From Porphyra umbilicalis (taxonomy: Eukaryota; Rhodophyta; Bangiophyceae; Bangiales; Bangiaceae), in the NCBI GenBank assembly GCA_002049455.2, contig KV918828.1:186001-250000 (forward strand): a stretch of DNA of 64,000 nt, in the 5' to 3' direction. Of this stretch, positions 1 through 49,900 are shown piece by piece. The first letter of the stretch is position 1. The number at the start of each line of letters is the position of its first letter. The position numbers were made by a program, and so were the translations under genes. The notes beneath the pieces are model-generated. The model saw only the letters and a list, made by a program, of their open reading frames with translations. It was not told the DNA's origin and searched no databases.

Positions 1-170
1 TATTTAAGACTGCGCGGGCGGCTGCTTTTCAATTGGCGCGACACGACGCAACTACCGATCCGACGGCAGCAACCGCGACGGTGTCGCCTGGCCAAAGCGC
101 GAGTCGGCACTCTCGCACTCGTGCCCGGCGGTGGTGGTGGTGGAGACGCGCGCCGCGTGTTGGTGTGTGT

Positions 171-240
171 CGGTGGGTGTCGGTGGGTGTCGGTGGGTGT
201 CGGTGGGTGTCGGTGGGTGTCGGTGGGTGTCGGTGGGTGT
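171..240. repeat. Tandem 10-bp repeat, seven perfect copies
   Basis: The unit cggtgggtgt is repeated seven times without a mismatch. It is G/T-rich on the plus strand, but it is not a canonical telomere repeat and it lies inside the sequence rather than at a chromosome end. Perfect copies suggest recent expansion. Confidence 0.95.
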
Positions 241-304
241 CGGCGTTGGGCCTGGCCGCCACCGAGCGCCCGAATGCCGGTGTTTGGTCGTCCCAGAGAC
301 GGCC

Positions 305-430
305 GCCCCGTACTCTCGGATGCCTCAATGTCCTCATTGTCCCCATTGTCCTCCTTGTCCTCCTTGTCCGTTTTCTTCAATTTCCTCATTGTCCTCATTG
401 TCTGTTTCCTCATTGTCCTCATTGTCCCCG
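305..430. repeat. Degenerate short tandem repeat of cctcattgt-like units
   Basis: Units close to cctcattgt and ccttgtcct recur across this stretch with point changes, ending at a poly-C run near 428-442. It makes three overlapping frames look open, but no protein family is recognisable. Confidence 0.8.
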
Positions 431-1051
431 CCCCCCCCCCCCTCAACAGGTATGGTGGGGGGTCTCTAGTGCAGCGGCGCCGCGGAGGCGACCGACACCA
501 GCCGTGATGGTCCAAATTCCCACCCCACACGACCGACCACCCCCACCGCCACGACGACTCGTGCGACCGGGTTTCATCCATGTCGGCGCGTTCAACACCA
601 GGTAGGAGGGGGTGTTTCGGCAGGGTGGTCGCACGCCCCGGTGGGATGGGCGGGGGTCGTCGCAGCGCTGTGGCTGGGCCCATCTGTCGGACCCGTGGGA
701 CCTGTATGGCGGGCATGTGCTCTATGCGGCGACGCCGCCGCACCGCAGCGGTCGGCAAGACGTCGTCCAGGCGTCTCCATGATGGCCAACGGTGGCGTTC
801 AACGCGCCACACCCCTTCTGTCCGTGACACGCCCGCGCGTATGACGTCACAATTTTCCACACACCACCCCCGCGGAGGGGGGGGGGGGGGGGGGGGCGGG
901 AGGGAGGACTCGCGGTGCCCGTTCGTCCGTACATTGTCTGCTCTCGCCGTCGGGTGCCGACCCACCGGGTGCCGACCCGCCGGCCCACCGCCCAGCTTCT
1001 CCCACGGCCGCCGGTGCCCGCATGGCGGCCTGTGGGTACACCCACCTGCAA

Positions 1052-1187
1052 GAGCCGGCGGCGGCGTGGCGTGTGGAGCCGAGGAAGGAGGATAGCGCGG
1101 CGGGAGTGCCTGCACTCACGAGCCGGCGGCGGCGTGGCGCGTGGAGCCGAGAAAGGAGGAGAGCGCGGCGGGAGTGCCTGCACGCGA
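1052..1187. repeat. Two direct copies of a 68-bp sequence upstream of the promoter
   Basis: The block starting gagccggcggcggcgtggc at 1052 recurs at 1120 with only a few substitutions and ends in gggagtgcctgcac both times. It lies about 130 bp upstream of the TATA box at 1316, so it could be a duplicated upstream regulatory segment, although nothing in the sequence shows that directly. Confidence 0.75.
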
Positions 1188-1315
1188 GGGTGTGTTTGTG
1201 TCGTGCGCTCGGCCGGCCCGCAACCAGCTCCTAGACCGTCTCGCGGGTGGTCTGGTCCCGCCGGTGTCGTGTGGCGTTCCGCGGCAAGCCAGCCACCGCT
1301 ACCCGTGCCGTTTCC

Positions 1316-1324
1316 TATAAAAGG
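1316..1324 (+). promoter_or_regulatory. TATA box of the zinc-knuckle/Fanzor gene
   Basis: TATAAAAGG is an exact match to the consensus RNA polymerase II TATA box. It sits 38 bp before the ATG at 1354, which lies in an acceptable start context (acaaccATGC). Spacing of 25-30 bp to a start site would give a very short leader. This is the clearest core promoter in the window. Confidence 0.7.
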
Positions 1325-1353
1325 TGTGATGGGTGCTGGCGCCGTGCACAACC

Positions 1354-2559
1354 ATGCGCCCACAGGCCTGGCCGCCGTGCCGCCCCGCGCCGACACCCCT
1401 AGCGGGCGGCAAGGGCGCGCCACCGCTTGAGGACGTCAAGCCCTCCCCCGCCCGTGTGCGCTCGTCCCCCGCCATGGACGACCAGTCGTCGACCGACGAG
1501 GAGGAGGCGCCCGGCACGTCGACAGCGCTTCGGGCGCGTCGCAGCGGCCACTGTCCCACGACGCGGCGCCCCACGACGACCACCAGTTTGGCGACAGCGC
1601 CGCCCCGCGAGGCGACGGCGAGCGGCAACGACAATGGGGACAATGGCGGGGGTGTGGCTGGGCCTGTGGGCGCAGACCTCGACGACGACGACGAGGTCAC
1701 GCGCCTCGGTGCGGCCGGCGAGGACGCGGCAATCAAGGCGGGTGGCCACCTCGACAGCGCGCGGCAGAGTGCGGCGTCTGCCGTGCGGTCGGCGACGGTG
1801 GAGGTTGCCGCCGCCGTCGCCGCGTGTGAGGCGGCCGGTGATGCGGGGCCGGTGGCGAGCTTGCGTGCCGCGAGTGCCCTCCTGTCCAAGCTCCTCGCAT
1901 CAAAGCCGGTGCACGCGCGGGGCACTGGGTCGCCCGCGTCGGCGGCGATGGACGACGCCACGTCGGCCTCTTCTGCCGTGTTGCAAGCCGTCGCCGCGGT
2001 GACGGTGCCGCCGCCCCGGCCACCCGCACCAGACGACGGTGACGAGGGCGCCGCGGCACCCCCCGCCGATGCCGACACAAGAGCCGACGCCTCCGCCCGA
2101 GTGGCGTGCAGGCGCCTCTGCGCGCGAGCGCGTCACGCGGCGGGCAGCATCTTGTCGGCGGTCAAGGGCCTGATCCCCATGGTGCAGCCCGACGCGGGGG
2201 ACCACGCGGGCGACGACGATGGCGACGGCAATGGTGGCGACGCTGGCGCCACGGCGCGCGGCGGCGGCGGCACGCGTGGCCGCCAGCGTCGATGCGGCGG
2301 CTGCGGGGCGACGGGGCACAATGTGAAAACGTGTCCGGCCGACGCTGCCACCAAGGCGGCGCACGCGGCGCGTGGCGAGGCGGCCAGGGCGGCCAAGGGC
2401 GCCAAGGCCGGCAGCGGAAACAACAAGTGCAGTGCGTGCCACGCGCGTGGCCACACCCGGGCCAGCGCTGTGTGTCCGCTGCGAGCCGTCGCCACGGCTG
2501 GTCGGGCCACAATGCAGACCGCGGGCGCGACTTGGGGTGCGTCGACCAGCACCGCATGA
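1354..2559 (+). CDS. Protein with two CCHC zinc knuckles; likely 5' part of the Fanzor transposon gene
   Basis: The 401-residue ORF starts at the ATG just below the TATA box. Its N-terminal half is rich in Ala, Asp and Ser, with an acidic stretch at about 111-115. Two zinc knuckles lie near the C-terminus: C314-x2-C317-x4-H322-x4-C327, the classic retroviral/retrotransposon spacing, and C359-x2-C362-x4-H367-x6-C374, a slightly longer variant. Such knuckles bind single-stranded nucleic acid. The ORF ends at TGA 2557-2559, but another open frame follows at once and leads into the Fanzor coding region on the same strand. I infer one composite gene split by an intron or by frameshifts. A possible intron (donor GTGCGT at 2537, acceptor CAG ending 2631) removes the stop but enters a less convincing frame. 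It could also be an independent upstream protein of the same element. Confidence 0.6.
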   Translation: MRPQAWPPCRPAPTPLAGGKGAPPLEDVKPSPARVRSSPAMDDQSSTDEEEAPGTSTALRARRSGHCPTTRRPTTTTSLATAPPREATASGNDNGDNGGGVAGPVGADLDDDDEVTRLGAAGEDAAIKAGGHLDSARQSAASAVRSATVEVAAAVAACEAAGDAGPVASLRAASALLSKLLASKPVHARGTGSPASAAMDDATSASSAVLQAVAAVTVPPPRPPAPDDGDEGAAAPPADADTRADASARVACRRLCARARHAAGSILSAVKGLIPMVQPDAGDHAGDDDGDGNGGDAGATARGGGGTRGRQRRCGGCGATGHNVKTCPADAATKAAHAARGEAARAAKGAKAGSGNNKCSACHARGHTRASAVCPLRAVATAGRATMQTAGATWGASTSTA

Positions 2560-3135
2560 CGGGGGAGGTGACGACGACCGTTTCCGTGTCGGTCGACCGG
2601 TTTTTTGGTGTCCGACGACGGCTGGCGCCAGGGCGGCCGGCAAACTCTTGCCCCCGACGGGGCGCCCGCCTACGACGTCGAGCCGTCGCGCGCCGACGGG
2701 GACCGCCGCCGCTGTCGCAAACGCTGCCGCGGGGGCGGCCGCGCTGACCGAGCTGGCCACGGCACAGACAAAGCATCTGCGGCTCGTTTCCATTGTCATG
2801 GACGGCACGATGCGGTACCTCCTCGAGCGCGTCGATGGTGGTGGCGGCGGGCAGGGTGCGGGCGGGGGCGGCGGCGGTGGTGGGGATGGCGGCGGTGGCG
2901 GCGGCCACCGCCGGCGCACGCTCGACGAGTTTATCGCGGCCGTGCCGGCGTCGCTGACAAGCAACCACGGGCTTGCCTGGAAGCAGGTCGCTTCGACCGT
3001 CTCTTGTCGCGGCGTCGGTGCGTTTGGCGGCGCCCCCCGGCGGGCGTGCGTCGATTGCTCGGGTAGAGGCGCACGCGTCAAGCCCCGCGGGGACATCAAG
3101 GCCGCCGCCCAGGGGATGGCGACTACTCTGCCTTT
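2560..3135 (+). other. Linker coding region between zinc knuckles and Fanzor body
   Basis: The second frame is open from 2372 to 3169 and gives a plausible helical segment, LTELATAQTKHLRLVSIVMD, at roughly 2745-2804, then a Gly-rich tract, then a segment with a CVDCSG motif. From about 3112 the first frame takes over with GDYSAF and continues into the Fanzor N-terminal region. The exact frame change is not resolved. The G/C-rich runs at about 2840-2910 are obvious places for an indel. Confidence 0.35.
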
Positions 3136-6100
3136 GTGGCGGCGTCGGCGGCGGTGGCAGACGCGGTGACCGAGCCAAGCCAGTTGCCGTGCAGCACGCT
3201 GCTGCCGGGTCCGGGCGACACGTCTGGTTGGGCCACCGTGGCGACGGCTTTTGAAAACCACTATGTGACGCACGTCACGTCGGCGGTCAAGGCCATTGCC
3301 AAGTGCATCGTTCACGACGTCTACCCGCAGGCCCCCGGCGGTCTCGACGGACAGCGCCGCGCGGCACTGATTGCGGCCCTCGTTGCCGGCCTGCAAGCCG
3401 CCGACGGCACGCGCCCGCCGTCGTTCAAGTGGCCGGCGGGCAAAGTGTCTGCGGCGGATGGGGCTGCCATGGCGGCCGGGGCCACGCTGGCGTACGACAC
3501 TGTGCTCGTCTACGCCGGTGGTGACGGTCGGCGGCGCTGTCTCCTCCAGCTCGACGCGTCGACCCTGCGACAGCGGCCGCTGCACGTCTACCCGCTGCTC
3601 CACTATGCCCAGCTGTTGTGCATCCGTGCCGGCATCGAGGCGACCGACACGTCACCCGGCCGAGCCGCCACGTGCACCGCGTACGCGCGCGTCGGCGGCG
3701 CGCTGCTCCGCCGGCGCCTGGCGTCCGCCGGGGTGTTGCTGCCAGCGTCGAAAACCGACGGGCTGTTCATTCAAACGCTGCTCCGCCGCGCGCGCATTGT
3801 CGGCGCCAAGACGGTGGTCGGGCCCTCCATCGTGTCGGACGGTGTCGGCGCGCACTTTACGATACGGCACCCCGCCACCGCCGCGTCGACGGCGGCCGCT
3901 CGGCGGGCGCGTCGTAAGGCTGCCAGTGACAGTCGTGGTGGGGGGGGGGGCCCACCGAGACGGCGAGCGTGCGGACGCAGCTGGACCGCATGGCGTTTTC
4001 GCCCGACGTCGTCAAGGAGCTGGCGTTTGTTGGGTGGGACCCGGGCGTCGCGTCGATTGTCGCTGCCTACTGCCCCGGGCGGTGCCGTTTGTTCAGTCAC
4101 CTGCGCCGCACCTGCACGCGTATCGGGCGTACCGGGCGCTGCGGATTGCGGGCGACGCGCTCGCGCGGGCGGCCATGGCCGCGACCGCCGCCGCCGAGTG
4201 CCTCGTGCGGCGGGGTGGTCGGGTTTTGCTGACCGTCGACGCGCTACACGCCAAGTTGGCTGACGTTGCGCGCGCGGCCAAGGCCACCGCGGCGGGCCTT
4301 CCCGTCGGCGGCGGTGACGCGGTGAGGCAGACGACCAAAAAGCGCGGCCGTGGCGCGCTCGGCGCGTCGACCGGGGCGGCGGGATCTCCCCCAAAGCGGA
4401 CTCGTACAGATCTGGTGGGCCCGCCGGCGGCCACGCCCGCGGCACAAGCGTCTTTGCGGCCTTTGGAGCACGCACCGACGGTGCCGACAGACGCGGTGGA
4501 CCCCCCCCCCCCAAGCGCCGGCGGTACAAGCAGCCGGCCTTTGGCGACGAGTGGCTGACCCCGATTCAACGGCAAGAGGTGGCCCGCAAGCGGGGGACGA
4601 GCGCCCCCGGCCGCCGCCGGGCCATCCTCACGCGCATGCGCGCCACCGCGCACGCCACGATCAATGGCGGCAACGTCCAACCGTGGCACCTGTCCAACCA
4701 CGTGTGTGTGTGGGTGGGCGAGGCGGCCCTGTTCAAAGAGGCGGCGCACGCGACGGCGGCTGTCAAGGCCAAGACAGAAGCGGCGGCGCACGCAGAGGCG
4801 GCATGGCGTGCAGTGTCGGTCGACAGTGGGGCACACGCCGCGTGCCTCGTGCAGCGCGCGGCGCAGGACAAGCGCCAGACGGCTGCGGCATTGCGCACGG
4901 CAGAGCGAGTGGCGGCTGCGGCGGCCGCTGCTGCACCCGCTGCGCCCCCGCAGCTCGGCGCGCCCGGCACGTCGCTGCCGTCGGCCGACCGCTTGCGCGT
5001 GTTGTGTGCCGCACTCAAACGTGCGGCCGCCGCCGCGGGGCGCCGGCGCGTGCGCGTCCCGCCCACTGGTGCGACGCTGGTCGTCTCCAAAGGCGCGTAC
5101 CGCGAGGCGACGGGCGCCGGTATGACGAGGCGCGCCGAGGCGGCAGCGGTGGCGGCGTGGGCGGCGGCACACCCAGGCGTGCCGCGCGAGTCACTGACGG
5201 CCGGGTGCTCCCTCAAGGTCACGACGTGGGGCGCGTGGGTGGTGGCGGCCACTGCGCGCATTGCGCGCACCTACACAGACGCCTATCAGGCGGCGTACGG
5301 GGCGGCCGCGACGGAAAGACGGCGAAAGGCGCGGCTACACGCCCTCATCCAGCGGAACCGGTACGCGGCGGTGCTGGCGCGCCGCTTGACGGGCGGTTTG
5401 CTGCGGCGCACGGTGGACGGTACCAAGGCGGTTTTGGCGATTGGGCGGTGTCGGCCGCGTGCCGGCAGCGTCGACCTCGTGCGGCGCATGGCCAAACACG
5501 TGCACCTCGTGTACGTGGACGAGCACAATACGAGCCTGACGTGTGCAGAGTGTGGCCACGGCTTGTGCAACACGTACGTGTCGCCCGACTCGCCGGTCGA
5601 CCTGACGCCCCTCAAGGCGGCAAGCAGTTACGCACATCGCGCGTCGGCGTCGGCGGCCAAGCGCGCCTCACCCCTCCGCGGCGGCCGGCGCGCGCGACGG
5701 GGTGTGACGACCGGCAGTCGGTCGGGTCCACGCGACGGTGCGGCTGCCCAGCGCGCCAAGGAGCACGCAGAGGCGGTGCGGACAAAGGTGCTGCAGGCGA
5801 TTGCGGCTCACGGCAAGAGGGCGTTTGGGACCGACCCGCTGGCGCTGTGGGGGGTCAAGCTGTGTACCAACGTCGCCTGCCCGGCTTCGTACGTCGGGCG
5901 AGACACCAACGCGGCGCGCAACATGTCCAAGATTGCCATCAAGAGCATGCGGGGTCGGAGCATCTTCCCCCACATCCGGGGGTACACCGTGTCACGCGCG
6001 CCACCCCAGGAAGACCCTGTACAGGCGGTGCGGCACGCGGCTGCGATCGACGCGGGTACCTACGAGGCCGGCTACGGGTGGACGCGGTGTTCACCCACGT

Positions 6101-6396
6101 CGTGGGAGCCCTGGCGCCGACCTGTCGTCGCCGACGCGCCGGTCGCAGAGGCGGGGACGGCCCCCACGGCCGTGCCAGTGGCGGCGCCAACGGTGCGGGT
6201 AGAGGCGCTGGGTGTGGTGGCATACGGGGCGAACGACGCAGCTGCTGCGTCGGCAAGCGGTGACCTGGCGACGAGTAACGTCGGCCAGATGGCTGCTGCC
6301 AGCCCCGCGCCAGCCGTGGGGCACAGCCACTCGTCTCCGAGCCGCCTCGAGCGGGTAATCGTAGACTGTTCACCAGGTTCATCTCGTGGGGTGTGA
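3136..6396 (+). pseudogene. Fanzor-family (eukaryotic TnpB-like) RNA-guided endonuclease, frameshifted
   Basis: Fanzors are eukaryotic TnpB homologues that cut DNA guided by an omega RNA. In order, the sequence shows an N-terminal region with a His-containing helix (ENHYVTHVTSAVKAI), a YPLLHYAQLL segment and a SDGVGAHFTIRH segment that match Fanzor N-terminal patterns. RuvC-I follows in VGWDPGVASIVAAY (Asp codon 4038-4040). The relocated RuvC glutamate typical of Fanzors is in YVDEHNTSLTCAECG (Glu codon 5521-5523). The zinc ribbon has cysteines at codons 5542, 5551, 5863 and 5878. RuvC-III is in GRDTNAARNM (Asp codon 5902-5904). Coding moves between all three frames: first frame to about 3945, third to about 4090, second to about 4505, then first frame from 4507 to the TGA at 6394. 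The first and last shifts coincide with a G run near 3940-3951 and a C run at 4501-4511. All catalytic residues survive, so assembly error and recent decay are both possible. The length suggests a Fanzor1-type transposon protein. Confidence 0.85.
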
Positions 6397-7013
6397 ATAG
6401 GGAGCTTCGCTCCTCACCGCTTCCAGAGGTGACTACTGGTTCATAGCTGAGCATGCGGCATATATGTAGGAAACACGGGTTGTCTTTGCGAAAACCATTG
6501 GCTCCCCTCCCGCCACTTCCTTCTCCACGTGACCGCACTGGATAGCCGCCCACCGGAGCCCGTTGCCGTCGCCCGATAGCTACTCGGCACCAGCCGCCGA
6601 CAGCTGCTCAACCGACGAGTGGCTCCCCCCAGTCACCAACACAGAGCCGCCCTGTTCGAAGGTAAGAACGGGTGTCGCTACCGCCAGTAGCACCGACGAC
6701 TCTCACGTGCTTCCTAGCCACAGCAAGGTTCACCGCCAACTGGTCGTTGTCGCCTGCCAACGACGTCTGTGCGACCAGCTGCGCCCCCAAGACCAGCGCG
6801 CGACCATCCCCCACGTCATGAGGCCTCTGGAAGAGACATTGACGTCGACCACCTCGCCTGCCGTCAGTAGCGTCATGAAAACGTCTCATGGGCCATCGGC
6901 GGTAGCGAACGCGCGGGCGTACGCCCCTCCCACCAGCGACGTCAAATCCTTCAGAGCACGGACCTGGCCGACTGGCCGCAAGCTTCCCCCACCGCCGCGC
7001 CCTACGGGAAATT
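6397..7013. other. 3' flank of the Fanzor gene; possible omega-RNA region, no gene seen
   Basis: No ORF here looks real. Just after the stop codon there is a small perfect hairpin (GGAGC 6401-6405, GCTCC 6409-6413) and a second short one (CCAG 6423-6426, CTGG 6436-6439). In TnpB and Fanzor loci the guide RNA scaffold overlaps the ORF 3' end and runs into the 3' flank, so a structured RNA could lie at about 6340-6500. The element's right end, which would mark the guide, was not found. Confidence 0.25.
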
Positions 7014-34361: not shown

Positions 34362-35104
34362 TATCCTTAAAATCTCAATTGGGCTTGCGACGTGGCGCCC
34401 CCTCACGGGCCTCCTATTGTAGGGTCCTGAAATGGGCCATATGTGCAATAGAGTTACTCCGTACCGGGCTACTTTTCCATCGATAGTCCTCCGTGTTGGT
34501 GGGCGGTCCGTGGCCCAATCCCTTGGAGTAAACTTTCCGCGGAATCTCGGAGCCTCTGAGGTGGGGCGATCCGCGAGATCCGCTGCAGATTGCGGTCGAC
34601 AGGCCGACGAAAGGCAGCGATCGTTTGACACGATGCAGACACGAAGCACATGTATGACACAAAGTGAGAGATCGTCGTTAAAAACGTCGATTGAGCGCCA
34701 CATGGCGGCGCCACGGGCTGCCACGGCACACGGCGAAGGTATTCTCCCAGCCAATGGTACTCTCGCCAGAGAGAAATCGCTGAGAATCACAATGAAAAGT
34801 GAGACGTATTCTCCCCCGGCCCACACCACGGAGCATGGGAGCCGCACGTTGGCACGGATGTCTCAGATGATCGACCGGCATTCGAGTGATCCGCCCCAGA
34901 ACGAGTGTCGTGGGCCTCGAGATCGAGAAAAGGAGGCAGATCCAGGGCAACGAGTCTTGGCCTGAGATCCCTGTTTGTGGCTCTCTGTGATGCGGCGCTG
35001 CCGTACCAGCTGTTGCATACAGCTCGAGACTGAAAAATGACAAGCACCTGGGAGGACAGCTCAAAGTGGCGAGCGCAGAGGCGCGCCAAGACTTTTCGTG
35101 GCCG

Positions 35105-35830
35105 CCCGCCACACATCGCCCGGGCAGGGCCCACCACCAACAGCTGGGAGCGTGGTGGTGCCCCCCCGCCACACCCCCTCCCCAGCAGGGCCCACCACCA
35201 ACAGCTGGCAGCGTCGTGGTGCCCCGCCGCCACACCCCCTCCCCAGCAGGGCCCACCACCAACAGCTGGCAGCGTCGTGGTGCCCCCCCGCCACACCCCC
35301 TCCCCAGCAGGGCCCACCACCAACAGCTGGCAGCGTCGTGGTGCCCCGCCGCCACACCCCCTCCCCAGCAGGGCCCACCACCAACAGCTGGCAGCGTCGT
35401 GGTGCCCCCCCGCCACACCCCCTCCCCAGCAGGGCCCACCACCAACAGCTGCGAGCGTGTTGGTGCCATCCCGCCACACCCCCTCCCGGCAGGGCCCACC
35501 ACCAACAGCTGCGAGCGTGTTGGTGCCATCCCGCCACACCCCCTCCCGGCAGGGCCCACCACCAACAGCTGCGAGCGTGGTGATGCCATCCAGCCACACC
35601 CCCTCCCGGCAGGGCCCACCACCAACAGCTGCGAGCGTGGTGGTGCCATCCCGCCACACCCCCTCCCGGGCAGGGCCCACCACCAACAGCTGCGAGCGTG
35701 GTGGTGCCCTCCCGTCACACCTCCTCCCGGGCAGGGCCCACCACCAACAGCTGCGAGCGTGGTGGTGCCCTCCCGTCACACATCCTCTCGGGCAGGGCCC
35801 ACCACCAACAGCTGCGAGCGTGGTCGTGCC
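35105..35830. repeat. 60-bp minisatellite of Harbinger copy 1, 12 units
   Basis: Each unit contains gggcccaccaccaacagctg. Sub-variants cluster (ctggcagcgtcg first, then ctgcgagcgtg), showing ordered expansion. Copy 2 has six units at the same place. Confidence 0.95.
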
Positions 35831-37016
35831 CCACTGTGTCCGACTGTGTGTGGGAAGGGCCGGTCTCTATCGAGTCTCGTGTCCGGCACGCGTCGTGCTG
35901 ACGACGCGACCGAGACACGGCGGCCGCGAACGCCGCCGCGTGGCGGCTTGCCACGCGATCGCCTCGCGTCATGCGCGCGCCGCGGATCGTTTTAGGAACG
36001 ATCCGCAGGCCCTGCTTATGACACCCCGACCAGGCTGTCTGAGTCCACCACTTCCCCCCACCGCGGCCGCGTCGTGCGCTGCTGGCCGTTCGCCCGTCGG
36101 ACATGAGCAGGCCGCGCTGGCGTGCCCCCCCGCAGGCGGCTCGCAGTCCCTAGTGACGGCTGACAGCCGACAGGTGGGCGCGACAGCACTGAGGGACCTG
36201 GGCCAAGATGCCTGGCTGCCGCTTCCGTATGGTCAGCAGTACAGCCACTTTTCATTGGTTGAGGGCGAACCACCATCAGCAGGACAATTTCTCCAGAAAT
36301 CGTGCCTCCAGCTGACTTCCATTTGATTGGCTCATGTCTGCGACCGTTGGAGCCCTCTCTCTGCGCCGTGCCCGTGACCCGTTTCTGGCGCCTTGCTCTA
36401 GCTCGCACCTTTTTCTCGGTCTGTCAGCCTCGGCCTGGGGTTGTCAGCTCTTCGGGCGGGCTCGCACGCGGCAGCCGTCACGCCCCGCATCGTCGGCCTC
36501 GTGCTGAGAAGCGTGGCGGCGGCTGCCGTCGAGGCCCAGCGCAGGCGTGTGGTGGCGGGGCTCGAGGCGACGCGTTTAGTCTTGGGCCCCGCGCGGGCGC
36601 GGGCCACCCCTGGTGCGTGTCCCTGAGGGGGGGGTGTGGATGTGGCGGTGGCGTCGGTGGTGGGGCATACGCTCGCAGGGCGTGCCGTCGTGTTGGAAGC
36701 TTGCTTCGTGCCCCCCACGGTGTGCCGCCCAGCACCCGCCTCTCTTGCGCGGTATCGTCACACCCCCGCCAGCGCCATCGTCGCTGACGCGGCTGCCCGT
36801 CGTGCGCGCGCTTTTTTTGCGCGCCCTTTTTTTGCGGCGGCCGTGCCCTTGACAGCGGCCGGTGCACGGCGGGTTTGGGCTCGAGCTTGCGCGCGCTTTT
36901 TGACTTGCTTTGTGGGCCCCTTCTGGGGCGATACCCCCCCACCACCCCGTTCCGTCTCCCACGTCGGTTTGCCTCTCCCGGGCCCCCCCCCCTCCTTTCG
37001 TGGGCGGCTTCCGGGG

Positions 37017-37060
<44 letters not shown>

Positions 37061-37829
37061 GTGCGGCGGGTGCGGCCACGGCGGGGGCGGCTGCCGCGCC
37101 AGTGCGCGCTTGGCGGCCGCCTGCGCTGCCAGAGGGGGGCACGCGTTGACGCGCTTGGCGCGCGCGCGCTTTCCGTCCGCTTGCCGGTGGTGTGGTGCTG
37201 TGGGCGGCGGCCGCGCGCCGGTGGTGTGGACGGCTGCCGGCGGTGTGGCGGCCGCCGCGCGCTGGTTGTGTGGGCGGCGGCCGCTCGCCGGTGGTGTGTG
37301 CGGCTGCCGCCCGTCGGCGGTGTGGGCGGCGGCCGCGCGCTGGTTGTGTGGGCGGCTGCCGTCACCGGCTGCTGCGGCTGCCGGTCGGTGGTGTGGGCGG
37401 CTGCCGCCCATCGGCGGTGTGGGCGGCTGCCGCGCGCTGGTTGTGTGGGCGGCTGCCGCCCCCGGCTGCTGCGGCTGGCTGCCGCCCGTGGCTCGCGTGG
37501 CCGGTGGCCGCCCCCGGTGGTTGGTCCTCTCCTATTAAGGGGCGGCTGCCGACGCCATGATGTGGGAGAAGAAGCCTCCCGACACCAAGCGGCGGAGGGC
37601 CAAGCGGAGGCGGCAGCGGTGGCGGAACGACGAAGATCGGCGGCTGCTTCGCGACTGGACCGACGCGGTCGCCCCGCACTTGGCGCACTGCCAGTGCGAC
37701 TGCTGCTGCCCGCCCCCCCCACCGCGTCCAGTTCTGCAAGGTGGTCGTCTGCCACCAACCCGTCGACCACCTCCGCCGCCGTGGACGGGCGGCGCGCCAC
37801 CACAAGAACGACGGCCGTGGACGCCGCCG

Positions 37830-38453
37830 CGGTGGACGGGCGGCGCGCCGCCCGACCGTCGTCATCCAAGCCCGCCGCGGTGGACGGGCGGCGCGCCGCC
37901 CGACCGTCGTCATCCAAGCCCGCCGCGGTGGACGGGCGGCACGCCGCCCGACCGTCGGCAGCCAAGCCCGCCGCGGTGGACGGGCGGCGCGCCGACCGAC
38001 CGTCGTCAGCCAAGCCCGCCGCGGTGGACGAGCGGCGCGCCGACCGACCGTCGTCAGCCACGCCGGCCGCGGTGGACGGGCGGCGGGCCGCCCAACGGTC
38101 GGCAGCCAAGCCCGCAGAGGTGGACGGGCGGCGCGCCGCCCAACCGTCGGCAGCCGAGCCCACCGAGGTGGACGGGCGGCGCGCCGCCCAACGGTCGGCA
38201 GCCAAGCCCGCAGAGGTGGACGGGCGGCGCGCCGCCCAACCGTCGGCAGCCAAGCCCACCGAGGTGGACTGGCGGTGCGCCGCCCAACGGTCGGCATCCA
38301 AGCCCGCCGAGGTGGACGGGCGGCGGGCCGCCCAACGGTCGGCAGCCAAGCCCGCGAAGGTGGACGGGCGGCGGGCCGCCCAACGGTCGGCAGCCAAGCC
38401 CACCAAGGTGGACGGGCGGCGCGACGCTCAACGAGCCGCCTCCAAGCCCGGGT
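37830..38453 (+). repeat. 48-bp coding tandem repeat, about 13 units
   Basis: The units carry gtggacgggcggcgcgccgc and ccaagcccgc blocks and keep a 48-bp period, so all three frames stay open. Copy 2 has about ten units (47179-47658). Internal variants (gcggtg, gcagaggtg, accgaggtg) show block duplication. Confidence 0.9.
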
Positions 38454-40483
38454 CGGTGGACGGCGGGCGGCCCGTCGGTAGGCCAGCAACCAGGGCAGGA
38501 GCGACCGCTAAGCCCGCCCAGGTGGCCGGGGGACAACCCGCCGCCACCCGACGAGCGGCGGCCGAGCCCGAGGCCGCCGGGGCGAGAACACCAGTAGAGG
38601 CACCCTCTGTCACTGCGGTCGGGGCTGCGGCTGCCGCCACCCCCGCGCTGTCCCTCTTTGGCAAGCGGCCGCCCCGGCAGCAGTGGGCGCAACCTGCCGT
38701 CCGCAAGCGGCGCTTCGTCCTCATTCGCACCCCTGAGGATCGGGCGGCTGTTCATCGCACCTCGGTCGCCGCCGCCTCTGCGGCTGCGGTCGCCTCCGCC
38801 GAGGCGGCGGCTACTGCGACTGCAGCGGCAGCCGAGTCGGCGACCGCGTCGGCGAAGTACCGGGCGGCGGTCGCCGCCGCAGCGCGGGCCAAAGTTGAGG
38901 CCACCAACGCGAGTGTTGCTGCGACGAAGGCGGCGCAGGCTTCGAGCAGAGCGGCGGCGGCCTTGGCGTACGTACGAGGACGGTACTTGGCCGCCGCCAA
39001 CCCTGGTGGTGCCGCCGCCGCCTCTGCCGCTGCCGCCGCTGCCGTCGGTCGGCCGGCCGCCGCCTCTGCCGCTGCCGCCGCTGCCGTCGGTCGGCCGGCC
39101 GCCGACTCTGTCGCTGCCGCCGCTGCCGTTGGTCGGCCGGCCGCCGACTCTGTCGCTGCCGCCGCTGCCGTTGGTCGGCCGGCCGCCGACTCTGTCGCTG
39201 CCGCCGGCGCATCCGGTCGGCCGGTGGCCGACTCTGTACCTGCCGACGGTGCTGTCGGTCGGCCGCCCGTCAAGCGCCGCACGGGTGGCCGTCCCCCCTG
39301 CCGCCAGCGACCCGTCGCCGTGCCGGCGCCGCGCCCTTTAGCGAGTATGGGGCGCGGACCAGCGTGGACGATGGCTGAGAACGATGCATTGATCAAGGCA
39401 TGGCTTTATCGAGGCGAACAACCCAATCCATGGGGACCGACCAGTCAGGCAAGGACTTTTGGCGGCGGGCGCTGACGGGCTGGCTGCAGCTGCTCCGCGG
39501 AGAGCCGGGCGCCGCGGCGCGGGAGCAGCGGGGGTTTGACGCCATGAGGAAGCAGTGGGCCAAGATCGTGGCGGGCGTCATGGAGTTTTCCAGCTGCGTG
39601 GTGCAGCGCGCCTGTCCAAGCCGACGGGCATGCCCACACCCGACCTCATCAACTGTGCGGAGGGCTCTACTGCAGCAAGCAACATCTACAGTCGCATCCG
39701 CGGCGACCACGAGGACGACGTCGCCAAGGGCAAGACCACTAAGCGGCGCAAGAAGCAAGTGTCGTGCCCCTGGGCACATTATTGGGAGCAGCTCAAGGAT
39801 CAGGACCGTTTCAAGTCGGCGGCCGCTGCCTTTGCTTCAATCCAGAAGAAGGCCGCCGACAAGCAAGTGAAGTTGGCGGCAAGGGCGCGGCCGCCGCTGG
39901 TGTGGATGGCGGCGGCGACGCCGCGGAGCAGCAGGCTGCCGACGGCGACCCGGCACCGGCGGCCGCAGCGAAGGCGGCCGCCGGTAACAATGCTGGCGGC
40001 GCACCGGCGGCGGTCGACGTCATCGACAGTGACGACGAGCCGTGGGGGGACCGCCCTCTTGGTACCAAGGCGGCCAAGCGTGCCCGTGCCGAGAACATTT
40101 TGGATGACCGCACGATCGGCCGCGTCGCAAGCGCTGTGGAGAAGCTTGGCGACGCGACGGAGCAGCGGACCATGATGATGGCATTCAGCCAGCCCTTCAT
40201 GCGCGAGACGGCGATGGGGGCGGCGTACTGGGCGCATCAGACGCAGAAGATGATGGCCAAAGAGGGCATCAAGGTGTCTCGTGGCGAGCCGGCCGCCGCC
40301 GGGGGGGCGTCGGGCGACGCCGCCGACGGAACTGGTGGCGCGGCTCCCCCCCCGCTGGTGCGGCGGCCGGCGGGTCACCCGTTGACGACGTCTCGGCGTC
40401 TGGGGAAGCAGCGGTGTCCGAGGCGATTAAGGTCATCGCCGTCGACGGCGACGGCGACATCTTCCTGGTTCCATCAGGCAATA

Positions 40484-43909: not shown

Positions 43910-44699
43910 TGAGAGCAAACCTAGCAATGTCAAAGGACTATCCTTAAAATCTCAATTGGGCTTGCGACGTGGCGCCCCCTCACGGGCCGCCTATTGTAGG
44001 GTCCTGAAATGGGCCATATGTGCAATAGAGTTACTCCGTACCGGGCTACTTTTCCATCGATAGTCCTCCGTGTTGGTGGGCGGTCCGTGGCCCAACCCCT
44101 TGGAGTAAACTTTCCGCGGAATCTCGGAGCCTCTGAGGTGGGGCGATCCGCAAGATCCGCTGCAGATTGCGGTCGACAGGCCAACGAAAGGCAGCGATCG
44201 TTTGACACGATGCAGACACGAAGCACATGTATGACACAAAGTGAGAGATCGTCGTTAAAAACGTCGATTGAGCGCCACCTGGTGGCGCCACGGGCTGCCA
44301 CGGCACACGGCGAAGGGATTCTTCCAGCCAATGGTACTCTCGCCAGAGAGAAATCGCTGAGAATCACAATGAAGAGTGAGACGTATTCTCCCGCGGCCCA
44401 CACCACGGAGCATGGGAGCCGCACGTTGGCACGGATGTCTCAGATGATCGACCGACATTCGAGGGATCCGCCCCAGAACGAGTGTCGTGCGCCTCGAGAT
44501 CGAGAAAAGGAGGCAGATCCAGGGCAACGAGTCTTGGCCTGAGATCCCTGTTTGTGGCTCTCTGTGATGCGGCGCTGCCGTACCAGATGTTGCATACAGC
44601 TCGAGACTGAAAAATGACAAGCACCTGGGAGGACAGCTCAAAGTGGCGAGCGCAGAGGCGCGCCAAGACTTTTCGTGGCCGCCCGCCACACATCGCCCG

Positions 44700-45045
44700 G
44701 GCAGGGCCCACCACCAACAGCTGGGAGCTTGGTGGTGCCCCCCCGCCACACCCCCTCCCCAGCAGGGCCCACCACCAACAGCTGGCAGCGTGGTGGTGCC
44801 CTCCCGTCACACCTCCTCCCGGGCAGGGCCCACCACCAACAGCTGCGAGCGTGTTCGTGCCCCCCTGCCACACCCCCTCCCGGCAGGGCCCACCACCAAC
44901 AGCTGCGAGCGTGGTGGTGCCCTCCCGTCACACCTCCTCCCGGGCAGGGCCCACCACCAACAGCTGCGAGCGTGGTGGTGCCCTCCCGTCACACATCCTC
45001 CCGGGCAGGGCCCACCACCAACAGCTGCGAGCGTGGTCGTGCCCC
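44700..45045. repeat. 60-bp minisatellite of Harbinger copy 2, six units
   Basis: Same unit (gggcccaccaccaacagctg) as in copy 1, but with half the number of copies and a different order of variants. Confidence 0.95.
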
Positions 45046-46902
45046 ACCGTGTCCGACTGTGTGTGGGAAGGGCCGGTCTCTATCGTGTCCCGTGTCCGGC
45101 ACGCGTCGTGCTGACGACGCGACCGAGACACGGCGGCCGCGAACGCCACCGCGTGGCGGCTTGCCACGCGATCGCCTCGCGTCATGCGCGCGCCGCGGAT
45201 CGTTTTAGGAACGATCCGCAGTCCCTGCTTATGACACCCCGACCAGGCTGTCTGAGTCCACCACTTCCCCCCACCGCGGCCGCGTCGTGCGCTGCTGGCC
45301 GTTCGCCCGTCGGACATGAGCAGGCCGGGCTGGCGTGCCCCCCCGCAGGCGGCTCGCAGTCCCTAGTGACGGCTGACAGCCGACAGGTGGGCGCGACAGC
45401 ACTGAGGGACCTGGGCCAAGATGCCTGGCTGCCGCTTCCGTATGGTCAGCAGTACAGCCACTTTTCATTGGTTGAGGCGAACCACCATCAGCAGGACAAT
45501 CTCTCCAGAAATCGTGCCTCCAGCTGACTTCCATTTGATTGGCTCATGTCTGCGACCGTTGGAGCCCTCTCTCTGCGCCGTGCCCGTGACCCGTTTCTGG
45601 CGCCTTGCTCTAGCTCGCACCTTCCACTAGTTATCCGCGTCGGCCGCAGCTCTTTGGCCCCAAACAATAAGAGGTGGAGTGTATCGCTTTTTCGGTGGTG
45701 GGGGCGAGTCCACGCACATTTTCTCGGTCTGCCGGCCTCGGCCTGGGGTTGTCAGCTCTTCGGGCGGGCTCGCGCGCGGCAGCCGTCACGTCCCGCATCG
45801 TCGGCGTCGTGCTGAGAAGCGTGGCGGCGGCTGCCGTCGAGGCCCAGCGCAGGCGTGTGGTGGCGGGGCTCGAGGCGACGCGTTTTGTCTTGGGCCCCGC
45901 GCGGGCGCGGGCCACCCCTGGTGCGTGTCCCTGAAGGGGGGGTGTGGATGTGGCGGTGGCGTCGGTGGTGGGGCATACGCTCGCAGGGCGTGCCGTCGTG
46001 TTGGAAGCTTGCTTCGTGCCCCCCACGGCGTGCCGCCCAGCACCCGCCTCTCTTGCGCGGTATCGTCACACCCCCGCCAGCGCCATCGTCGCTGACGCGG
46101 CTGACCGTCGTGCGCGCGCTTTTTTTGCGCGCCCTTTTTTTGCGGCGGCCGTGCCCTCGACAGCGGCCGGTGCACGGCGGGTTTGGGCTCGAGCTTGCGC
46201 GCGCTTTTTGACTTGCGTTGGGGGCCCCTTCTGGGGCGATACCCCCCCACCACCCCGTTCCGTCTCCCACGTCGGTTTGCCTCTCCCGGGCCCCCCCCCC
46301 CTCCTTTCGTGGGCGGCTTCCGGGGGGCGGCGGCGGCGGCGGCAGCGGCGGCGGGTGCGGCGGGTGCGGCCGCGGCGGGGGCGGCTGCCGCGCCAGTGCG
46401 CACTTTGCGGCCGCCTGCGCTGCCAGAGGGGGGCACGCGTTGACGCGCTTGGCGCGCGCGCGCTTTCCGACCGCTTGCCGGTGGTGTGGTGCTGTGGGCG
46501 GCGGCCGCGCGCCGGTGGTGTGGACGGCTGCCGCCCGTCGGCGGTGTGGGCGGCCGCCGCGCGCTGGTTGTGTGGGCGGCGGCCACTCGCCGGTGGTGTG
46601 TGCGGCTGCCGCCCGTCGGCGGTGTGGGCGGCGGCCGCGCGCTGGTTGTGTGGGCGGCTGCCGTCACCGGCTGCTGCGGCTGCCGGTCGGTGGTGTGGGC
46701 GGCTGCCGCCCATCGGCGGTGTGCTTGCGGTCGGTGGTGTGGGCGGCTGCCGCCCATCGGCGGTGTGGGCGGCTGCCGCGCGCTGGTTGTGTGGGCGGCT
46801 GCCGTCCCCGGCTGCTGCGGCTGGCTGCCGCCCGTGGCTCGCGTGGCCGGTGGCCGCCCCCGGTGGTTGGTCCTCTCCTATTAAGGGGCGGCTGCCGACG
46901 CC

Positions 46903-49900
46903 ATGATTTGGGAGAAGAAGCCTCCCGACACCAAGCGGCGGAGGGCCCAGCGGAGGCGGCAGCGGTGGCGGAACGACGAAGATCGGCGGCTGCTTCGCGA
47001 CTGGACCGACGCGGTCGCCCTGCACTTGGCGCACTGCCAGTGCGACTGCTGCTGCCCGCCCCCCCCCCCGCGTCCAGTTCTGCAAGGTGGTCGTCTGCCA
47101 CCAACCCGTCGACCACCTCCGCTGCCGTGGACGGGCGGCGCGCCACCACAAGAACGACGGCCGTGGACGCCGCCGCGGTGGATGGGCGGCGCGCCGCCCG
47201 ACCGTCGTCATCCAAGCCCGCCGCGGTGGACGGGCGGCACGCCGCCCGACCGTCGGCAGCCAAGCCCGCCGCGGTGGACGGGCGGCGCGCCGACCGACCG
47301 TCGTCAGCCAAGCCCGCCGCGGTGGACGAGCGGCGCGCCGCCCAACGGTCGGCGGCCAAGCCCGCAGAGGTGGACGGGCGGCGCGTCGCCCAACCGTCGG
47401 CAGCCGAGCCCACCGAGGTGGACGGGCGGCGGGCCGCCCAACGGTCGGCAGCCAAGCCCGCAGAGGTGGACGGGCGGCGCGGCGCCCAACCGTCGGCAGC
47501 CGAGCCCACCGAGGTGGACGGGCGGTGCGCCGCCCAACGGTCGGCAGCCAAGCCCGCCGAGGTGGACGGGCGGCGGGCCGCCCAACGGTCGGCAGCCAAG
47601 TCCACCAAGGTGGACGGGCGGCGCGACGCTCAACGAGCCGCCTCCAAGCCCGGGTCTGTGAACGGCGGGCGGCCCGTCGGTAGGCCAGCAACCAGGGCAG
47701 GAGCGACCGCTAAGCCCGCCCATGTGGCCGGGGGACAACCCGCGGCCACCCGACGAGCGGCGGCCGAGCCCGAGGCCGCCGGGGCGAGAACTCCAGTAGA
47801 GGCTTCCTCGGTCACTGCGGTCGGGGCTGCGGCTGCCGCCACCCCCGCGCTGTCCCTCTTTGGCAAGCGGCCGCCCCGGCAGCAGTGGGCGCAACCTGCC
47901 GTCCGCAAGCGGCGCTTCGTCCCCATTCGCACCCCTGAGGATCGGGCGGCTGTTCATCGCACCTCGGTCGCCGCCGCTTCTGCGGCTGCGGTCGCCTCCG
48001 CCGTGGCGGCGGCTACTGCGACCGCAGCGGCAGCCGAGTCGGCGACCGCGTCGGCGAAGTACCTTGCGGCGGTCGCCGCCGCAGCGCGGTCCAAATTTGA
48101 GGCTACCAACGCGAGTGTTGCTGCAACGAAGGCGGCGCAGGCTTCGAGCAGAGCGGCGGCGGCCTTGGCGTACGTGCAAGGACGGTACTTGGCCGCCGCC
48201 GACTCCATTGGTGCCGCCGCCGCCTCTACCGCTGCCGCCGCTGCCGTCGGACGGCCGGCCGCCGACTCTGTCGCTGCTGCCGGCGCGTCCAGTCGGCCGG
48301 TGGCAGACTCTGTCCCTGCCAACGGTGCTGTCAGTCGGCCACCCGTCCAGCGCCGCACGAGTGGCCGACCCCCCCTGCCGCCAGCGACCCGTCGTCGTGC
48401 CGGCGGCCGCGCCCTTTAGGCAGCATGGGGCGCGGACCAGCGTGGACAATGGCGGAGAACAATGCAATAATCAAGGCGTTGCTTATTGAGGCGAGCAACC
48501 CAATCCGTAGGACCGACCAGTCGGGCAAGGACTTTTGGCGCCGGGTTCTGACGGGCTGGCTGCAGCTGCTCCGCGGAAAGCCGGGCGGCGCGGCGCGGGA
48601 GCAGCGGGGGTTTGACGCGATGAGGAAGCAGTGGGCCAAGATCGTGGCCGGCGTGATGGAGTTCTCCAGCTGCGTTGTGCAGGCGCGTCTCTCGAAGCCG
48701 ACGAGCATTGCGACCCACGCCGACCTAGTCAACTGTGCGGAGGGGCTCTACTGCAGCAGCAACATCTACAGCCGCATCCGCGGCGACCACGAGGACGATG
48801 TCGCCAAGGGCAAGACCACCAAGCGCCGCAAGAAGCAGGTGTCGTGCCCTTGGGCGCATTGTTGGAAGCAGCTCAAGGACCAAGACCGTTTCAAGTCGGC
48901 GGCCGCTGCCTTTGCCTCCATGCAGAAGAAGGCCGCCGACAAGCAATTGAAAGCGGCGGCAAGGGCGGCGGCCGCCGCTGGTGTCCATGGCGGCGGCGAC
49001 GCCGCGGAGCAACAGGCTGTCGACGGCGACCCGGCACCGGCGGCAGCAGCGAATGCGGCCGCCGGTAACAATGCTGGTGGCGCACCGTCGGCGGTCGACG
49101 TCATCGACAGTGACGACGAGCCGTGAGGGGACCGCCCCCTTGGTACCAAGGCGGCCAAGCGTGCCCGCGCCGAGACCATTGCGGATAACCGAACGATCGG
49201 CCGCGTCGCCAGCGCGGTGGAGAAGCTTGGCGACGCGACGGAGCAGCGGACGATGATGATGGTATTCAGCCAGCCCTTCATGCGCGAGACGGCGATGGGG
49301 GCGGCGTACTGGGCGCATCAGACCAAGAAGATGATGGCCAAGGAGGGCATCAAGGTGCCTCGTGGCGAGCCGGCCGCCGCCGGGGGGGTGTCGGGCGACG
49401 CCGCCGACGAGGCTGGTGGTGCGGCTCCGCCCCCCGCCGGTGCGGCGGCCAGCGGGTCACCCGTTGACGACGTCTCGGCCTTGGGGGAAGCAGCCGTGCC
49501 CGAGTCGATCAAGGCCATCCCCGTCGACGGCGACGGCGACGTCTTCCTGGTGCCCTCAGGCAACACGCATCCCGCCAAGTAGTCAGGTGCCGCGCCGGTG
49601 GCCGCGGATGGGGCGTCCCCAGCGTCGGCGGCCGCCGAAGGTACTTCTACAGCGTCGGCGGCCGCCGAAGGTGCATCTTCATCCCCTGCATCGGTGGCTG
49701 CCGGCTCTGCCTCCGCCGCGCGCGCATTGTCGGCGGCTGCCGCTAGATCAACATCGGCACCGGCGGCGGCGAGCTCGCCACCAGGGGGCGGCCGTGCTGC
49801 TCCCACTTCGGGCAGGACGCAAGCGTCTAAGACGCCCACCGCTTCTTTTGCCGTTGCGGCTGCCGCTGCTTCATCGGCGGCTGCCGAAGCGGCGTCATCG

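Follow-up and report, generated by a model that had tools for sequence, protein, structure and literature searches.

A Probable Fanzor-Family Gene with N-Terminal Zinc Knuckles on a Helitron2-like Element of Porphyra umbilicalis

Does a pair of CCHC zinc knuckles that lies ahead of a Fanzor nuclease in the genome of the red alga Porphyra umbilicalis belong to the nuclease itself, and what might such a protein do for the transposon that carries it? The locus lies at the start of a 64,000-nucleotide stretch (the window; contig KV918828.1, here C68:186001-250000, in an assembly of 83.8 Mb and 665 contigs), for which a preliminary description had proposed a knuckle open reading frame (ORF) followed by a Fanzor ORF in one unit from 1354 to 6396. 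All of the features that it named were located in the window by reading frames, sequence reading, and Pfam (Table 1). We consider it probable that the locus is a Fanzor-family gene encoding an enlarged relative of Fanzor1 of about 1,640 residues, with CCHC knuckles in its N-terminal half, and that its carrier is a rolling-circle element of Helitron2-like type, inside which the search for RepHel found none. This reading draws directly on a fused reading frame, its conservation, the Fanzor fingerprint, the number of copies, and the ends of the element.

Knuckles and Nuclease in One Frame

In the window copy, the knuckles lie in a 408-aa frame that ends at 2559, and a 605-aa frame (4579-6396) holds the relocated glutamate, the zinc ribbon, and RuvC-III. 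A search of the genome with the 605-aa piece gave 79 matches that fall into at least 60 Fanzor loci; 72 of 120 candidates were scored, and the Fanzor counts are therefore lower bounds. Twenty copies of the family were fetched, and in two of these, L016 on C56 and L027 on C3, the knuckle segment, the DPG motif, the relocated glutamate, the zinc ribbon, and the RD motif share one open frame of 1660 and 1921 codons, respectively. Both knuckles and DPG are in one frame in five further copies (L011, L020, L022, L025, and L026); in the remaining ones, the frame is interrupted earlier or the knuckle part is missing. The window copy is 97.9% identical to L016, against which it shows one in-frame 18-base insertion and seven single-base deletions; because of the latter, its unit is split over several frames, with breaks near 1426, 2492, 2648, 3115, 3937, 4077, and 4512. 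The deletions fall mostly inside homopolymer runs, and mutation and sequencing error are both possible. As judged from these alignments, the window unit is a decayed copy of a single knuckle-Fanzor gene that is intact in two sister copies, and not, as had been proposed, a knuckle ORF preceding a separate Fanzor ORF.

The stop of the proposed unit, at 6394-6396, stands, but its start may lie further downstream: the first Met of the L016 frame corresponds to position 1474 (GCCATGG), and the ATG at 1354 may not be the true start. Counted from that Met, the predicted protein has about 1,636 residues, and the coding frame appears intronless. Two divergent copies, L027 and L028, likewise have a TATAAAA ahead of the frame. 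The assembly is high in GC (about 71% over the first 8 kb of the window).

A genome search with the knuckle segment, in which all 70 of 70 candidates were scored, found it at most 12 kb upstream of the nuclease at 48 of the 60 Fanzor loci found. The distance between the two is 1776-1810 bp at 37 of these 48 and 6.8-10.8 kb at five. Some of the 12 loci without a knuckle sit at contig ends (e.g., C328:1-702 and C56:310697), and most of the others are unread; five of 52 knuckle loci have no scored Fanzor partner. By tblastn, the segment is present in 17 of the 20 fetched copies, the exceptions being L021 (whose relation to the window begins only at 4122), L024 (at a contig end), and L028, whose knuckle was recovered by the knuckle-segment search, split across two frames. 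We note that intact knuckles are not universal, since knuckle 2 of L027 has lost its first cysteine.

Protein searches outside the genome, each of which scored about 7,980 candidates, those sharing most words with the query, yielded P0001-P0005. P0002 and P0003 (JGI) are 81% and 77% identical over the matched part and carry both knuckles and DPG on one chain. P0004 (ENA, 1408 aa) and P0005 (source tag lgn, 1331 aa) are distant relatives, with 30% and 26% identity to L016 over the alignment and 39% and 38% in the best local stretches. They share knuckle 2, the DRGxD stretch downstream of it, a VSC...CxxC cluster, DPG, and the relocated glutamate; CX4C and RD are kept in P0004, and P0005 ends before that part. 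Knuckle 1 is found in the copies of this genome, in P0002, and in P0003; neither P0004 nor P0005 shows it. The order of knuckle, DPG, and relocated glutamate, which the preliminary description had proposed looking for in relatives, is thus conserved outside this genome. The pattern that it had named as contrary, homologues lacking knuckles with a conserved Fanzor start near 3100, was not seen, the knuckle being present at most loci and in both distant relatives. The VSC...CxxC cluster (L016 residues 528-547), which lies between the knuckles and RuvC-I and aligns in P0004 and P0005, is possibly a further zinc site. A query with P0005 gave no match among prokaryote genomes. An integrated virus was considered and rejected: no relative of the 605-aa piece or of P0004 was found in IMG/VR, and no virus gene was found in the Pfam-scanned parts.

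These data bear on whether one protein or two are made. The knuckles could belong to a Gag- or ORF1-like protein and the nuclease to a downstream Fanzor, with one or two transcripts between them, and the window copy taken by itself would suggest as much, with its knuckle frame closed and its nuclease motifs in other frames; knuckles and RuvC-III share a frame in only two of the 20 fetched copies. However, in these two the frame runs uninterrupted from a point ahead of the knuckles through to its end, P0004 and P0005 are single chains with knuckle and nuclease motifs, and the spacing is nearly fixed across 37 loci. We regard two proteins as very improbable and take the knuckles to belong with the nuclease, as the preliminary description had also held.

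Codon comparison of L016 with L027 (1649 aligned codons, 78.7% identical residues) gave ratios of nonsynonymous to synonymous divergence (dN/dS) of 0.34 before the knuckles, 0.26 in the knuckles, 0.29 from the knuckles to RuvC-I, 0.41 from RuvC-I to VDEH, and 0.28 from VDEH to RuvC-III. The three C-terminal slices gave 0.55, 0.82, and 1.10, with no more than 11 differences each and a dS of only 0.03-0.12. Given the 79 genome matches, the domain order of the distant relatives, and a dN/dS of 0.26-0.41, the unit is far beyond chance.

Fanzor Fingerprint and Catalytic Residues

Published work is cited here by its PubMed Central (PMC) number. Yoon et al. (2023) gave the Fanzor fingerprint as DPG together with a glutamate six residues before the zinc finger (PMC10711439). 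DPG is present in the window copy, L016, L027, and P0002-P0005, and the relocated glutamate is present in the window copy, L016, L027, P0001, P0004, and P0005. A four-cysteine ribbon followed by RD (CxxC...CX4C...GRD, ERD, or NRD) is found in L016, L027, P0001, and P0004; its second pair is CX4C instead of CxxC and lies about 107 residues away. By the published sequence fingerprint, the protein is a Fanzor, which agrees with the preliminary identification. Bao and Jurka (2013) described the Fanzor spacing as D-X(125-275)-[TS][TS]-ribbon (PMC3627910); the distance in L016 is about 497 residues, with an insert between RuvC-I and RuvC-II.

The profile search that had been proposed as a check gave a mixed outcome. 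The Pfam model Cas12f1-like_TNB (PF07282) matches P0001 at 33.2 bits, above its cut-off of 26.3; the window (4579-6393, E 1.1e-4, 22.7 bits), L027 (19.7 bits), and L016 (18.7 bits) score below it, and P0004 and P0005 gave no match to this model. The zf-CCHC_6 model matches the window frame in two stretches (E 8.7e-6), consistent with the two same-strand upstream knuckles of the preliminary description, and Pfam knuckle matches in P0002, P0003, and L025 are weak and below the cut-off. A search of NCBIfam gave no match, and a sequence search of the PDB with L027 gave a single match at chance level (E 1).

The state of the catalytic residues matters for a further alternative, in which the protein is a former Fanzor that now acts only as a DNA- or RNA-binding transposition factor, its knuckles and ribbon binding the element or its transcript without guided cleavage. 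The protein is unusually large and rich in inserts, no guide RNA was observed, and an earlier proposal assigned Fanzor and TnpB a part in transposition other than that of a nuclease (PMC3627910). Yet L016, L027, and P0004 retain the catalytic D-E-D, as do P0001, P0002, P0003, and P0005 in the portions that they cover, and the slice from VDEH to RuvC-III has the lowest dN of the eight (0.029), although its dS is low as well. A protein reduced to binding seems to us unlikely.

The Carrying Element and Its Right End

The preliminary description had noted that Fanzors ride on eukaryotic transposons, and paired element ends, together with the many Fanzor loci, bear this out here. The window copy spans C68:172528-192440 (19.9 kb), with its left end about 13.5 kb upstream of the window, and its right end is sharp: 20 copies finish in CTGGT and then continue into differing DNA. 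With up to three mismatches allowed, 131 places in the genome carry the left-end motif, against none in the control; with up to two allowed, 87 carry the right-end motif, 61 of them exactly. A few of these 87 may be chance matches because the reversed control gave 6. Pairing of ends within 80 kb, on which the element lengths rest and for which 100 of the 131 left ends were listed, gave at least 14 left-right pairs, comprising the window copy, four other gene-bearing copies of 14-22 kb, eight further pairs of 33-65 kb, and one of 0.9 kb. The 33-65 kb pairs (on C272, C55, C31, C60, C8, C33, C88, and C25) would be very large elements, with chance pairing possible case by case.

Helitron2 elements (Helentrons) have a 5' asymmetric terminal inverted repeat (ATIR) at the left end and a 3' ATIR 20-30 bp from the right end, just 5' of a hairpin (PMC3627910). 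Here, AGCGAAGCT stands at the left end of the long C38 copy and of the C56 and C68 copies, and the small C38 copy lacks only its first A; AGCTTCGCT lies 28-29 nt from the right end, directly 5' of the hairpin, as in Helitron2. A pairing GCGAA...TTCG[C/T] at the left end is possible in all four copies, the 5-bp stem being judged by eye. No target-site duplication (TSD) is seen in either C38 copy or in C56, and the window copy (C68) shares only TTCA; a T run adjoins the left end in both C38 copies and not in C56 or C68. A 943-bp copy in an 18-bp tandem repeat looks like an insertion beside a T run without duplication. The 241-bp copy on C129, whose left end is eroded, has an 11-bp TSD, TTCATGAGATA, after TTTTA; duplication was likewise reported for 5'-truncated CRe elements (PMC3627910). 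As read from these features, the ends resemble those of Helitron2, an already known carrier of Fanzor1.

Two other classes of element were set aside. The 3' terminus, CTGG followed by T, fits the CTRR + T of a canonical Helitron1, but the examined left ends lack the initial TC. A LINE-like origin was prompted by a 5' tandem array and the differing 5' part of L027; no reverse transcriptase was found in the Pfam-scanned parts, and Helitron2 is indicated by the ATIRs and by a right end that is precise and lacks a poly-A tail. The array, built of a 332-bp unit, takes up some 8 kb of the window copy and stops roughly 2 kb before the TATA box; it has at least 20 near-identical units (C68:176813-184876, upstream of the window), is also found at C507:28784-36497, and could be a transposon-carried satellite or promoter array. 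Homology of L027 to its sisters begins just upstream of the TATA box (oriented 1891; region 1700-1990), with no long match further 5', and the element therefore seems to change its 5' region. RepHel matches in the genome number 28 rows, 27 of them over the cut-off. A left end at C170:109543 (-) lies about 15 kb upstream of a same-strand RepHel row (the region C170:94279-109569 spans both). No right end was detected there, and the left end may point to an autonomous partner or be due to chance.

At the right end, the element overlaps the 3' end of the gene, and a 109-nt module there is, by analogy, the best candidate for a guide-RNA scaffold, because it is kept in a gene-less copy, recurs in long copies, and lies at the same place as the scaffold of SpuFz1, whose ghost loci retain the scaffold (PMC10432273). 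The gene-less C129 copy retains 109 nt on the right (99%) and 123 nt on the left (96%), with the gene absent between them. In the long copies C38, C447, and C116, 87 nt of the gene 3' end are found a second time at the right end, after about 8.2 kb of other sequence; the same duplication is suggested by coordinates in C144, C504, and C288 (two units) and by distance only in C55. A 32-nt motif accompanies Fanzor at 37 of the 87 right ends and occurs by itself at 18, while four have Fanzor only and 28 have neither; two of the 18 motif-only ends (C334 and C527) do have Fanzor DNA directly upstream, and C354, the second motif-only end examined, is of the long-copy type. The module is predicted to fold into three stem-loops in four other copies and into one long imperfect hairpin in the window copy. 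Rfam and tRNA scans of the window gave no match. The 8.2-kb module that separates the Fanzor gene from the right end (L029, L030, and L031, the right parts of C38, C116, and C447) is bounded by 87-nt direct repeats and, by coordinates, occurs once or twice per copy. In most of it and in the first 2.3 kb of the C38 copy, Pfam gave only a weak DUF1059; the next 2.2 kb (L033) lay outside the scan.

Alternatively, the right end could be merely a transposition end, its overlap with the gene and its low divergence reflecting recombination, with the guide RNA, if any, encoded elsewhere. The 28 right ends with neither motif nor adjoining Fanzor fit this account, even if a few of the 87 are chance matches, as do the 943-bp copy, which has only about 47 nt of the right end in common, and the low dS, which spans about 900 bp and thus reaches beyond the end itself. 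Set against these, 55 of the 87 right ends keep the 32-nt motif, 23 nt of which lie outside those 47 nt, and the motif is present in the gene-less copy and in long copies with the 87 nt behind 8.2 kb. We regard a mere transposition end as a distinct possibility, though one that we doubt.

If the module is instead a scaffold, we infer the following for RNA binding, guide use, cleavage, and the role of the knuckle. The protein would bind a right-end RNA. This RNA would start within the 3' end of the sequence that codes for the protein, extend to the right end of the element, and go on into the host flank, which would serve as the guide. The RuvC center (D-E-D) would then cut unoccupied sites that match the guide, and such cutting would favor retention or copying of the element. 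Zinc knuckles are single-stranded nucleic-acid binders in other proteins, and the knuckle here may help to capture the right-end RNA or the single-stranded intermediate of the element. More tentatively, and on balance we think it rather unlikely, the protein may represent a separate giant-Fanzor lineage with the knuckle as an RNA-capture module, in which one protein serves the family in trans via a scaffold that the 3' end of its gene itself encodes, and elements that lack the gene or carry inserts retain scaffold copies in order to be served.

Several results count against the knuckle-Fanzor reading and its right-end RNA. The gap of about 495 residues from DPG to the relocated glutamate and the split CX4C ribbon are outside published patterns. 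Pfam finds no knuckle in L016 and L027 (E 0.1 or better), P0004, or P0005; with Pfam silent or weak in the other copies, the knuckle claim rests on the window match, the spacing pattern, and alignment. AlphaFold (AF2) models built on alignments of 2 and 4 rows were useless (mean pLDDT 31.6 and 34.6), and no PDB chain matched the family profile at E 1 or better, which leaves the RuvC fold, and the bilobed WED/REC-RuvC architecture expected of a Fanzor, unproven. None of the 28 RepHel rows lies inside any paired interval, which is why we file the element as Helitron2-like only. The internal junction of the gene-less C129 copy was found only once. The z scores of seven predicted folds of different spans run from +0.01 to -3.51, and the fold of the window copy differs from those of the other copies. 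For an analysis of covariation, the 20 rows of the 80-nt right end vary too little (mean identity 98%). The low divergence seen at the right end extends beyond a short RNA, since dS is low across the last 900 bp or so of the gene, and recombination between subfamilies is possible; the drop fits either that or an overlapping RNA function.

Elsewhere in the window, a 566-aa transposase frame at 54383-56080 (-) matches Pfam Plant_tran (E 9.5e-59) and DDE_Tnp_4 (E 1.8e-13), and we take it to be Harbinger-type. A nearly identical 61-bp tandem unit forms two arrays about 9 kb apart (35098-35832 and 44675-45050), and a 48-bp unit is repeated at 37773-38463 and 47170-47634; as each unit recurs in two arrays, the pairs suggest a segmental duplication.

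Table 1. Features of the knuckle-Fanzor locus, in window coordinates
Feature	Position	Strand	Basis or remark
Part of the transposon copy within the window	1-6440	+	Paired 5'/3' end motifs; sharp 3' end in sister copies
Candidate core promoter TATAAAAGG (TATA box)	1316-1324	+	Sequence reading only
Knuckle-Fanzor coding unit	1474-6396	+	Start by correspondence with L016; stop 6394-6396
Zinc knuckle 1, CX2CX4HX4C	2293-2334	+	
Zinc knuckle 2, CX2CX4HX6C	2428-2475	+	
RuvC-I DPG, first catalytic aspartate	4038-4046	+	In a short frame
Relocated catalytic glutamate of VDEH (GAG 5521-5523), six residues ahead of ribbon CxxC (5542-5553)	5521-5553	+	
Second half of zinc ribbon, CX4C (5863-5880), and RuvC-III RD (5899-5904)	5863-5904	+	
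87-nt segment: coding 3' end, stop, and 10 nt; direct repeat behind the 8.2-kb insert	6320-6406	+	
Right-end module, candidate guide-RNA scaffold, 109 nt	6332-6440	+	99% retained in gene-less copy; predicted folds
3' ATIR AGCTTCGCT, complementary to left-end AGCGAAGCT	6403-6411	+	
3' terminal hairpin CACC...GGTG	6415-6431	+	
Host flank right after the element end, would-be guide position	6441-6461	+	By analogy with published Fanzor/TnpB right-end RNAs

Comparison with Known Systems

Fanzor1 on Helitron2 is already known (PMC3627910); the novelty of the present family lies in its conserved knuckle fusion, its size, and its split zinc ribbon. Literature searches of openly licensed papers found no Fanzor with a CCHC motif or knuckle and no TnpB with a zinc knuckle, in line with the preliminary suspicion that such a fusion was undescribed, although a description elsewhere is possible; no named RNA-binding addition to Fz1 turned up in the literature covered. 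Most Fz1 proteins have 600-700 residues, PpFz1 has a RuvC insertion of about 100 aa (PMC11423790), and the N-terminal halves of Fz1 proteins are highly variable (PMC3627910). A trend for protein parts to replace the jobs of the guide-RNA scaffold has been proposed for the passage from TnpB to Cas12 (PMC10432273), and a lineage with a fused, conserved knuckle is a natural test of it. With about 60 loci, two intact frames among 20 copies, and a gene-less relative, the family also provides a system for asking what Fanzors do for transposons.

Like Fanzor1 (SpuFz1, GtFz1, and PpFz1), the protein has DPG, a relocated glutamate six residues before the ribbon, and RuvC-III RD, and its gene is transposon-borne, multicopy, and adjoins the right end, with SpuFz1 likewise having ghost copies without the gene (PMC10432273). 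Unlike Fanzor1, it has about 1,640 residues instead of the usual 600-700, N-terminal CCHC knuckles, a long insert between DPG and the relocated glutamate, and a ribbon split with CX4C, and we infer RNA guidance here. The element is like CRe-1, -2, and -3 of Chlamydomonas reinhardtii, which carry Fanzor1 on non-autonomous Helitron2, in its ATIRs, its 3' hairpin, and gene-bearing copies in which no RepHel was found; it also appears like CRe in that no TSD was seen at three intact ends, a TSD is present at the copy with an eroded left end, and the 5' neighborhood is T-rich in some copies. The CRe genes have 5 or 10 exons (PMC3627910), whereas the frame here appears uninterrupted by introns; five gene-bearing copies here reach 14-22 kb and eight more pairs 33-65 kb by end pairing, and the cargo here includes a 332-bp tandem array as well as right-end modules of 8.2 kb. 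The gene-less copy is like ghost Spu-1 of Spizellomyces punctatus in having the ends and the right-end scaffold region without a nuclease gene (PMC10432273), but Spu-1 has 134 ghost loci, whereas one gene-less copy was fully read here and its junction is single. With TnpB (IS200/IS605 and IS607), the protein shares the RuvC motifs, a zinc ribbon (Pfam TNB, above its cut-off in P0001), and the right-end position. It differs in that TnpB proteins usually show D-hydrophobic-G, with a canonical glutamate that precedes the ribbon by about 50 residues, and in its knuckles, which go unmentioned for TnpB in the parts of that account covered (PMC10711439).

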